Origin: a bacterium
Lineage (GTDB): Bacteria; BMS3Abin14
Reading direction: 5' to 3'
Assembly: GCA_020350725.1 (NCBI GenBank)
Contig: CP070719.1
Span: 1,260,769-1,270,424, forward strand
Length of the DNA stretch: 9,656 nt
Below the pieces are notes generated by a model. That model was not told where the DNA came from, ran no database searches, and saw nothing but the letters and a program-made list of their open reading frames with translations. This document shows, in pieces, positions 2,238 through 9,119 of this stretch. The position numbers and the translations under genes were made by a program. Every line of letters starts with the position of its first letter. Positions within the stretch are counted from its first letter, which is position 1.

Positions 2238-3044
2238 CTATTTCATGTTGCTTATTAACATTTTTGCCAGTGGATTCCCCGTCATGAAATGATGCCTGAA
2301 GACCAACTTGAGGTTTCTCCTCAGGTCGGGCTTGCTGTTGACGACATAGATCATTCCGGCCAGGTGGAAGATCTCGCGTTCGAGCCTCTCGAACGTGACT
2401 TCGACCCCTGCAGCTGACGAAAGCGCCTCCACCATGAGAGGTACGATCTTGTCCTTCATCCGGAGGTGTGTGTCCTCGTGAAGGATGGCGAAATCAGGTC
2501 CGATGTCGGCGATCCTTCTGACGAAGGATGCTATCTCCGGCAGGTCCACGTGCTTGGGAGGAGCCGTCTTGACCTCCATGTAGAGGAAACGTCCCGAGAC
2601 GATGGCCACCACATCGTGGTCACCGCCCGCATCCAGGCCGCCAAAACGGACGCCCCAGGCAGAGGGACAGCCGAAATCCCGCCGGAGGACCTGGGATACG
2701 TACCATTCGTAGGTTCCGCCGAAACTTCCCACGGCATCGCGCGGCAAGGGGCGCCCTGTCTCATCGGGGATGAGAACGCCAAGGTCGAAGAACTGGGTGA
2801 GGAATCCGTCGAAGGCCTCCGGGGCGCAGAAGCGCTCCACTGCCCGGCGGCCCTTGATCCAGGCCGAAGGACTCTTGCATTTGATGGCCTCCCGGAGGAG
2901 GAGCCTGGCCGCGTAATGGTCCAGCAGGGACATGTACTTTTCCTCCTCCCCTACTCCGCGTCCGGGCACGAGCAGTTCCTCCTCAGGGTTCCACCTGTCG
3001 ATGGAAAGACCCCTGCTGCGAATGAGGCTCTGGAGGGTATCCAT
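2238..3044 (-). CDS. Uncharacterised protein with PD-(D/E)XK nuclease-fold motifs
   Basis: I do not recognise a named family for this 268-residue soluble protein. The middle carries the usual order of a restriction-endonuclease-like core: a helix with a glutamate (GTYEWYV, Glu113), then GGDHDVVAI (Asp142 and Asp144), a short turn, and a strand ending in MEVKT (Glu157, Lys159), which matches the D-x(n)-ExK metal site. A helix and the strand DFAILHEDT follow. There is no signal peptide or membrane segment. The start is uncertain. The ATG at 3044 has no Shine-Dalgarno and sits 6 nt from a repeat array (first heptamer at 3051), while the in-frame ATG at 2933 (residue 38) follows GGAGGAGG at good spacing and would give 231 residues. 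It is followed by adenine deaminase on the same strand. Nuclease activity is inferred from the motif pattern only; it could be a non-catalytic member or another beta-alpha protein. Confidence 0.7.
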   Translation of the reverse strand: MDTLQSLIRSRGLSIDRWNPEEELLVPGRGVGEEEKYMSLLDHYAARLLLREAIKCKSPSAWIKGRRAVERFCAPEAFDGFLTQFFDLGVLIPDETGRPLPRDAVGSFGGTYEWYVSQVLRRDFGCPSAWGVRFGGLDAGGDHDVVAIVSGRFLYMEVKTAPPKHVDLPEIASFVRRIADIGPDFAILHEDTHLRMKDKIVPLMVEALSSAAGVEVTFERLEREIFHLAGMIYVVNSKPDLRRNLKLVFRHHFMTGNPLAKMLISNMK

Positions 3045-3078: not shown

Positions 3079-3159
3079 AGCCGAAACCATGGCAAATGAG
3101 TCCAGAGTCCAGGGACCTGTGCCCGGAGGGGCGAGGGGGCGATGTATAGTTCTAAGAGA

Positions 3160-3210
3160 TAAGTGATAAGAGATAAGTATACTGAGCTGTTACTTATCAC
3201 ATATCACTTA
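3160..3210. repeat. 20-bp stem-loop built of 7-nt GATAAGN words
   Basis: The left arm 3160-3179 and right arm 3191-3210 are complementary at 18 of 20 positions, with an 11-nt loop (3180-3190). The arms are made of words of the GATAAGT/GATAAGA type at 7-nt spacing, read in opposite orientation in each arm. There is no flanking T tract. It lies in the space between divergent genes, so terminating a convergent transcript is unlikely to be its role. Confidence 0.7.
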
Positions 3211-3278
3211 GTACTCAGGACTCAGCTCTCGGTGAACAGTTAGTACCTGGAACGTGGAACGTGAATTACAGGCAGCGG

Positions 3279-3438: not shown

Positions 3439-3480
3439 GGTAATGCGTGGAGACACGGGGACGCGGAGGGAAAAGCGGTT

Positions 3481-3518
3481 GTCATTGCGAACAGAAAACC
3501 GTGTGAAGCAATCTATAG
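3481..3518. repeat. Partial copy of the 'GTCATTGCGA' element
   Basis: GTCATTGCGA recurs at 3481-3490, then GTGTGAAGCAATC, and the sequence runs directly into GTGAACC words at 3521. The right terminal repeat is missing. The 20 bp upstream (3461-3480) nearly match those upstream of the full copy (27 of 30 identical over 3329-3358 against 3461-3490), so both sit in the same GC-rich word context. Confidence 0.5.
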
Positions 3519-3520
3519 CT

Positions 3521-3652
3521 GTGAACCGCGAACCGTGAACCGTGAACCAGTCTTTCCGAATCACCAATCACGGCTCTTTCCCTACCGTGAACTGTGAACT
3601 AGCCTTTTCGAATCACTAATCACAAATCACTAATCACTAATCACTAATCCTG
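3521..3652. repeat. Heptamer arrays: GTGAACN and AATCACN blocks
   Basis: GTGAACC or GCGAACC words start at 3521, 3528, 3535 and 3542. AATCAC words follow at 3559 and 3566, GTGAACT at 3587 and 3594, then AATCACN at 3611, 3618, 3625, 3632 and 3639, with a diverged word at 3646. Both GTGAAC-to-AATCAC joints (CAGTCTTTCCG and TAGCCTTTTCG) place the second word exactly 17 nt after the last GTGAAC. There is no open frame with protein-like composition. Confidence 0.85.
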
Positions 3653-3676
3653 GCAGTCTTAACCGTGAACCCTCCT

Positions 3677-3768
3677 TTTGGACTTTGGATTGATCTCTAA
3701 TCTCTAATTTCTAATCCTCTAATCCTCTGCTTCACCAACCGTGAACGGTGAACTGTGAACCGGAAACC
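3677..3768. repeat. Heptamer array and inverted copy of the window-start repeat
   Basis: TTTGGAC (3677), TTTGGAT (3684), TGATCTC (3691), TAATCTC (3698), TAATTTC (3705) and TAATCCT (3712) continue in one 7-nt register. GTGAACG (3741), GTGAACT (3748), GTGAACC (3755) and GGAACC-type words come next. Positions 3680-3733 are the reverse complement of 62-115 with about 49 of 54 identical, so this and the window-start block face each other across the adenine deaminase pair. Confidence 0.8.
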
Positions 3769-6898: not shown

Positions 6899-6903
6899 AG
6901 AGC

Positions 6904-7013
6904 GGACGCGGGGAGAAAAGAGTCCAGAGTCCAGGGGCCAGCGTCCAGAGGGGCGCGGAGAGAAAAGAGTCCAGAGTCCAGGGGCCAGCGTCCAGAGGGG
7001 CGCGGAGAGAAAA
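6904..7013 (+). repeat. 47-bp tandem repeat directly after ugd
   Basis: Two identical 47-bp units occupy 6913-6959 and 6960-7006, with the first 7 nt of a third at 7007-7013. Each contains two GAGTCCA words, GGGGCCAGCG and GGGGCGCGGA. An upstream variant GGACGCGGG (6904-6912) matches the end of the inverted copies at 9026-9119. The perfect identity of the two units suggests recent tandem duplication. 47 is not a multiple of 3, and reading frames through it are artefacts. Confidence 0.85.
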
Positions 7014-7016
7014 ACG

Positions 7017-7078
7017 AATCACAAATCACAAATCACGAATCACTGATTCACCAACTGTGAACTGTGAGCCAGCCTTTA
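7017..7078. repeat. Heptamer array AATCACN running into GAACTGT words
   Basis: AATCACA (7017, 7024), AATCACG (7031), AATCACT (7038), GATTCAC (7045), CAACTGT (7052), GAACTGT (7059) and GAGCCAG (7066) share one continuous 7-nt register. The array ends in CAGCCTTT, a variant of the joint also seen at 3598-3606 and 7227-7236. Confidence 0.8.
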
Positions 7079-7144: not shown

Positions 7145-7308
7145 TTTGGATTTGGGACTTTGGATTCGCAATCGAATCACAAATCACAAATTACTAATCA
7201 CGGCGGTCTCAACTGTGAACTGTGAACCAGTCTTTTCAAATCACGAATCACAAATCACTGATCACGGCGGTTTACCGACCGTAAACTGGAAACTGGAAAC
7301 TGGAAACT
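7145..7308. repeat. Long mosaic heptamer array upstream of the epimerase
   Basis: TTTGGAT (7145), TTGGGAC (7152) and TTTGGAT (7159) come first. From 7175 to 7308 about 19 successive 7-nt words keep one register while changing identity: AATCACA, AATTACT, AATCACG, GCGGTCT, CAACTGT, GAACTGT, GAACCAG, TCTTTTC, AAATCAC, TGATCAC, GGCGGTT, and finally GGAAACT at 7288, 7295 and 7302. ATCACGGCGGT occurs at both 7197 and 7261. Confidence 0.8.
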
Positions 7309-8620: not shown

Positions 8621-8622
8621 CC

Positions 8623-8795
8623 GGTTTACAGTTCACGGTTCACGGTTTACAGTTGGTGAAGCAGTGATTCGTGACTCGTCATTCGTGATTCGTTTGCGAA
8701 TCCAAAGTCCCAAATCCAAAAAGAAAGTTCACAGTTCACCATTCACGGTTTACGGTTGAAGACCGTCGTGATTCGTGATTTGTGATTCGTGATTC
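8623..8795. repeat. Heptamer arrays in reverse orientation
   Basis: GGTTTAC (8623), AGTTCAC (8630), GGTTCAC (8637) and GGTTTAC (8644) lead. GTGATTC (8664), GTGACTC (8671), GTCATTC (8678) and GTGATTC (8685) follow, then ATCCAAA/GTCCCAA words near 8699-8720. AGTTCAC (8726, 8733), CATTCAC (8740) and GGTTTAC (8747) come next, and GTGATTC/GTGATTT at 8768, 8775, 8782 and 8789 close the array. All are exact 7-nt steps. These are the reverse complements of the GTGAACN and AATCACN words found at 3521-3768 and 7017-7308. Confidence 0.85.
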
Positions 8796-8806
8796 GTTTT
8801 TTCCCC

Positions 8807-9025: not shown

Positions 9026-9119
9026 CTCTGGACGCTGGCCCCTGGACTCTGGACTCTTTTCTCTCCGCCCCCCTCTGGACACTGGCCTCTGGACTCTGGA
9101 CTCCTTTCTCCCCGCGTCC
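9026..9119 (-). repeat. Inverted tandem copies of the 47-bp repeat
   Basis: CTCTGGAC starts at 9026 and 9073, a 47-bp period. The unit at 9026-9072 is the reverse complement of the 6913-7006 unit with only a couple of differences in the GCGCGG stretch. The second unit, 9073-9119, carries a few more substitutions and ends in CCCCGCGTCC like the variant at 6904. Confidence 0.8.

Follow-up and report, generated by a model that had tools for sequence, protein, structure and literature searches.

The window, a 9,656-nt stretch of DNA corresponding to bases 1260769–1270424 of a 2,777,163-base sequence that is interrupted by 112 gaps, each of 100 N, contains clusters of short tandem arrays with a repeat unit of 7 nt. 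We refer to the recurrent units as modules. Five are arrays of heptads, namely A (AATCACN), B (GTGAACN), C (TTTGGAY), D (GAGTCCA), and E (CTAATCT). Module F is a palindrome of GATAAGN heptads, module G is the octad GACGCGGA, and module X, GTCATTGCGA...GTGAAGCAATC, is itself no heptad array. Positions are those of the window unless marked as genome positions.

The focal region lies on the plus strand. A C block of TTTGGAY heptads is located at 7145–7169 and is followed by the linker CAATCG into an A block, as read from the sequence and this C-to-A transition. The period scan places the A block at 7175–7201, with four copies of AATCACN (one of them AATTAC) in phase 0 modulo 7. A non-periodic linker, GGCGGTCTC (7202–7210), leads into a B block of AACTGTG/GTGAACN words (7211–7228), and a 10-nt linker, AGTCTTTTCA (7229–7238), leads from there to a second A block (7239–7265), now in phase 1 modulo 7. 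Another A-to-B linker, GGCGGTTTACCGACC (7266–7280), precedes the second B block (7281–7307; GTAAAC and three copies of GGAAAC). All three linkers were recognized in our linker survey. The cluster extends upstream on the plus strand to 6899–7072, a part that follows the module syntax and contributes two D units (GAGTCCA heptads in a 47-nt tandem), an A block at 7017, and a B block at 7053.

Two further large clusters are present in the window. One at 3476–3768 on the plus strand reads X-B-A-B-A-(B)-C-E-B, and the other, at 8622–8799, reads A-B-C-A-B on the minus strand. All three large clusters follow the genome-wide module order. Smaller features on the minus strand include a C block followed by an E block at 104–198, an order known from the transition survey, and two D units of CTCTGGA heptads at 9026–9103. 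An F element at 3140–3225 is palindromic by sequence and folding, and each of its arms carries GATAAGN/TAAGAGA heptads. For a copy elsewhere in the genome, at a distant site, the predicted fold is about -27 kcal/mol. No Rfam family matched within the window at gathering score, and no promoter- or terminator-like site was found in the focal region. A 268-aa open frame on the minus strand (2241–3044) has no Pfam or NCBIfam match. It carries a D...ExK-like stretch, GGDHDVVAIVSGRFLYMEVKT, and could have a PD-(D/E)xK nuclease fold.

Heptad periodicity of intergenic DNA

Coding regions were masked by open reading frame and hexamer score before intergenic DNA was analyzed by lag. Over the whole genome, intergenic identity at lag 7 was 0.319, compared with about 0.255 at neighboring lags (0.251–0.273 over the rest of the range 5–12), and harmonics were seen at lag 14 (0.302) and lag 21 (0.283). 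Coding DNA, defined genome-wide by the same masking, had no lag-7 signal and displayed the codon period only. Perfect tracts with at least 12 matches gave the same picture: 107 intergenic tracts had period 7, compared with 0–11 for other periods up to 13 and with none in Markov simulations. The 34 perfect intergenic tracts of period 14 are a harmonic of period 7. An approximate scan yielded 777 intergenic tracts of period 7 (out of 853 period-7 tracts in total), 147 of period 8, and at most 17 for each remaining period from 4 to 12. The 777 tracts cover 30 kb and group into 513 clusters.

The 7-nt periodicity is genuine and genome-wide. The initial annotation had claimed period 7 at 13 intervals, and at all of them lag-7 identity was 0.58–0.90. 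Mononucleotide shuffles gave 0.24–0.34, the observed value was not reached in any of 500, and identity was low at other lags. Its broader observation that many words have a common 7-nt period is borne out by the lag-7 excess and the tract scans, and the genome-wide comparison with neighboring lags on which it had staked that claim came out in its favor. An excess of period 7 over other periods and over chance, together with a mainly intergenic location, places these tracts with the heptanucleotide simple sequence repeats (SSRs). The 147 period-8 tracts are the sole other clear excess, and many of their words are G-rich. Genome-wide, the octad GACGCGGA/GACACGGG is found near D modules.

Modules, linkers, and register

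Within clusters, 97.5% of 982 module copies are codirectional. Their order is strict and one-way throughout the genome: D, X, then cycles of B, A, and C, and then E. The most frequent transitions genome-wide are A to B (123), B to A (72), X to B (65), C to A (59), and B to C (56), followed by D to X (21), C to E (20), and E to B (19). The reverse orders A to D, A to X, C to X, and E to X were each counted 0 times in clusters across the genome. The linkers between modules are conserved and non-periodic. Genome-wide, the B-to-A linker is 10 nt long at 56 of 73 junctions, the B-to-C linker is mostly 6 nt, and the 59 C-to-A transitions have gaps of 8, 22, or 15 nt.

The initial annotation had described the focal arrays as holding a single 7-nt register while the word changes. 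This does not hold, as the words change over non-repeated linkers where the phase slips. In the 134-nt stretch on which that description was based, and in its own frame, linker words such as GCGGTCT, TCTTTTC, GGCGGTT, and TACCGAC repeat nothing adjacent, and AATCAC moves from position 0 modulo 7 in the block at 7175 to position 1 in the block at 7239. Across the genome, A-to-B linkers measure 12 nt (n = 38), 13 nt (n = 23), or 14 nt (n = 35), and from the start of one A or B block to the start of the next of its kind the distance takes all residues modulo 7. Register is kept inside a block and lost across word changes, and the words change where one module of a dispersed composite repeat with a fixed order gives way to the next. 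Reading a common register across words from sequence alone risks taking the borders between modules for the work of a copying machine.

Each heptad of a block has a core of six fixed bases and one free spacer position, and this pattern is repeated across hundreds of copies. Only module F is clearly palindromic. We rejected strong RNA structure as a property of the A-B composite, as its predicted structure is modest (mean z of -1.1 and -1.5). With respect to flanking genes, 146 clusters are codirectional and 97 are opposite (P = 0.002). Clusters are present in convergent, divergent, and codirectional gaps, at variable distances from gene ends. Replication-strand bias could not be read from cumulative skew, which gave no clean origin or terminus on this scaffolded sequence.

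The X element is 32–33 nt long and occurs at about 120 places in the genome, usually 5' of B blocks; its ends are conserved, whereas its middle varies. The copy at genome positions 1264249–1264281 corresponds to 3481–3513 of the window. Of 61 genomes sampled, 20, belonging to many families, also carry it. Another motif, TTCGACARGCTCA, occurs 61 times genome-wide (e.g., at genome positions 2380836–2381099), often within array clusters.

Dispersal, neighboring words, and relatives

Exact multi-module copies of 45–140 nt are found at distant loci, including 121 nt common to genome positions 849020 and 2768208. Dispersed copies differ mainly by indels of 1 nt and of 7, 14, or 21 nt. We counted 1,098 indels of 7 nt, compared with 238 of 6 nt and 262 of 8 nt; 197 of 14 nt, compared with 37 and 35 at the adjacent lengths; and 29 of 21 nt, compared with 6 and 4. 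These peaks come from paralogous copies within one genome, and they support, rather than prove, a 7-nt step because the alignment of periodic DNA favors whole-heptad gaps. Neither an empty site nor a boundary duplication was found for composite copies in this genome. Around the A-B junction there was no sharp boundary and no common termini were seen; conservation declines gradually to either side of the anchor. Terminal inverted repeats are absent from the A, B, and C modules. A search for plasmid similarity gave no match.

Adjacent words within a block tend to differ. In position-preserving shuffles, 38 ± 4.6 identical neighbor pairs were expected for A blocks, 36 ± 4 for C blocks, and 13.6 ± 2.8 for B blocks, and we observed 11, 16, and 7, respectively. 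For A blocks matched for length and linker, there were 15 identical pairs, compared with 31 ± 4 expected. Identical adjacent words make up 13% here and 28–41% in arrays of other phyla. Among the matches listed, GTGAACN triples with identical neighbors numbered 7 of 46 here, 35 of 54 in the family member G002, and 15 of 22 in G004. The latter two carry pure GTGAACC runs instead, as known from pattern matches and a few loci of 3–5 kb. Instead of purging, the cause of this avoidance could be a small number of heterogeneous founder arrays.

Arrays of A and B are present in the family members G002, G004, and G011 and were not found in G003, G007, and G009. The A-B composite is absent from all 11 other family genomes, and it had no match in a genome collection that may omit very near records.

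The gaps in the sequence bear on how these arrays are represented. Of the 112 N gaps, 69 are no more than 300 bp away from an array, compared with 41 expected from random intergenic positions; therefore, the longest arrays may be missing from the assembly. The ends of contigs share overlaps of up to 141 nt, a length that is probably the assembly k-mer and far exceeds any block. Many exact 139–141-nt repeats end at N gaps (e.g., genome positions 373098 and 390008) and resemble unmerged k-mer overlaps of scaffolded contigs. A GC-only stretch in one array cluster (genome positions 1393104–1393528) resembles a sequencing or gap-filling error.

Origin of the composite and comparison with known repeats

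The focal region is a single member of an intergenic family of polar, modular repeats found throughout the genome. We judge it somewhat more probable than otherwise that, in this family, slippage or recombination with a heptad step makes and trims the blocks and that an ancestral composite has spread by copying of segments. This account is the most economical one, adding copying to a known tendency: heptad-step slippage or recombination was proposed for bacterial heptamers following the 2007 survey cited in PMC4692102 and PMC4679880. In its favor are the intergenic-only lag-7 excess, the conserved linkers and directional syntax, the exact copies at distant loci, the indel spectrum, the shortage of identical neighbors compared with the pure runs of G002 and G004, the absence of the A-B composite from relatives, and the lack of an RVT_1 match in the genome. 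During replication, slippage or recombination with a 7-nt step would create blocks and alter their length, and blocks with identical neighbors would be shortened fastest, leaving non-identical words. Once the lineage had split from its family, ectopic recombination, template switching, or some form of transposition would have placed copies of the composite at hundreds of intergenic sites. With such copying and trimming, the mosaic would be an inherited architecture, with no machine that writes different words in a single register. Most likely, the arrays are passive in the main and have a mild preference in their orientation toward flanking genes. Codirectionality with genes is not predicted by a passive model and hints at selection or coupling to transcription. 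Recombination and slippage alone also fail to explain one free spacer beside six fixed core bases.

That same pattern, six constant bases and one free position in hundreds of copies, would be expected if the arrays were binding sites, with a DNA- or RNA-binding protein, a Csp-like or other regulator, covering about 7 nt per subunit, reading the six-base cores, and using the modules as regulatory cassettes. The mild codirectionality with flanking genes agrees with this, CspB binds as one protein per heptamer (PMC4679880), and a regulatory role of heptads has been proposed for Beggiatoaceae (PMC4679880) and Geobacter (PMC2700814). However, arrays occupy convergent, divergent, and codirectional gaps alike, their distance from gene ends varies, and the focal region lacks a promoter- or terminator-like site, so we regard binding sites as an unlikely explanation. 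The many dispersed, polar copies with missing modules could also be read as a decayed MITE-like element moved by a Y1 or other transposase, in which the heptads are incidental and module-poor strings are internal deletions. MITEs are recognized by terminal inverted repeats and target-site duplication. Exact segments common to distant loci and two Y1_Tnp matches in the genome fit this reading, but no common termini of the copies were seen, the A, B, and C modules have no terminal inverted repeats, and Y1_Tnp is equally present in array-less family members such as G003 and G009, with no correlation to arrays in the family. We consider such an element rather unlikely.

The initial annotation had suggested a common copying mechanism with a 7-nt step and a search for a linked reverse transcriptase or transposase. 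A templated enzyme of the reverse transcriptase or telomerase type that writes words in 7-nt steps would account for one step length with many words and for the indel spectrum. The peaks at 7, 14, and 21 nt, alignment-favored as they are, agree with the step itself. The enzyme does not fare as well: Pfam RVT_1 had no match in the genome, register is lost between words, and the avoidance of identical consecutive products is the opposite of what iterated templating would give. We regard templated writing as very improbable. As to a transposase, the Y1 genes do not track arrays among relatives. An assembly artifact is extremely unlikely; the excess of gaps near arrays and the contig-end overlaps of up to 141 nt point toward one, but blocks of 14–35 nt are much shorter than the apparent k of about 141, the clusters have unique flanks, and identical words are found in independent genomes. 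Finally, a self-propagating directional grammar, in which an active process of an undescribed kind adds or copies modules in a set order and direction with adjacent units differing and so rewrites the intergenic DNA of this lineage, seems distinctly improbable to us.

Among known repeats, bacterial interspersed mosaic elements (BIMEs) and REPINs are likewise dispersed intergenic mosaics of several motif types in recurrent combinations. BIMEs are built of palindromic REP units in alternating orientation and have a linked RAYT (Y1) transposase. Unlike these, most modules here are non-palindromic and the clusters are one-way. In the SPADE survey (PMC6344855), no other tandem repeats were as abundant as heptamers in the intergenic regions of a broad set of prokaryotes; there was no clear functional clue, and heptamers lack an accepted explanation. 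Heptanucleotide SSRs are over-represented in bacteria, and polymerase slippage has been hypothesized (Mrazek 2007, as relayed in PMC4692102 and PMC4679880). The arrays described here resemble bacterial SSRs in period, intergenic location, and occurrence in many lineages, and differ in having fixed modules in an ordered, one-way composite that avoids identical neighbors.

Cyanobacterial STRR sequences and the Xanthomonas GGGAATC and Nostoc GGGGAYT repeats (PMC4692102) are also tandem heptamers between genes with heterogeneous units (GGGANTN), but they use other words, and module order and linkers are unreported there. The TAACTGA repeats found in marine Beggiatoaceae as well as in cyanobacteria and Bacteroidetes are intergenic heptads, which in Microcystis and Elizabethkingia occur together with other heptamers (PMC4679880); they mostly use one word and lie near start codons in BOGUAY, and TAACTGA triples are absent from this genome. 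The multicopy sequences of Geobacter metallireducens form dispersed families with four or five heptad repeats per member, but with one word per family and, in the accessible part of that report, no described syntax between modules (PMC2700814). Heptamer abundance is already known; the syntax and the neighbor rule look new, as no directional module order or neighbor avoidance was described in the literature searched, which mostly excluded subscription journals. Several heptad words in one ordered composite with hundreds of copies provide a setting in which the making, spread, and purging of arrays can be separated.

At least 117 stretches, drawn from many phyla, contain four tandem copies of GTGAACN. 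Loci of other phyla contain 318 period-7 tracts, compared with 30–35 at periods 6 and 8, a count biased, like their word composition, by choosing the loci with a GTGAAC period-7 bait. The word TAACTGA recurs among these loci. Cyanobacterial loci such as L198 and L250 carry different words and mixed arrays side by side, and mixed heptamers are reported in Microcystis (PMC4679880), contrary to the one word per array that the initial annotation took as typical of STRR; the clusters of this genome likewise hold several words each. The pattern xxGAxxx fits 67% of distinct words here (40% expected) and 49% in other phyla (34% expected). A word grammar shared across bacteria was rejected: the overlap with other phyla was 13 words, compared with 9.9 ± 2.8 expected. 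We claim no shared lexicon because this overlap is at chance level and the bait biases composition. Hairpin avoidance by the words was unsupported once G+C was matched; the words are merely poor in GpC and CpG. Viral contigs contain few GTGAAC arrays (21 stretches). At four loci of other phyla (L189, L195, L244, and L254), an inverted array comes within about 50 nt after a GTGAAC array, and these pairs could form hairpins.
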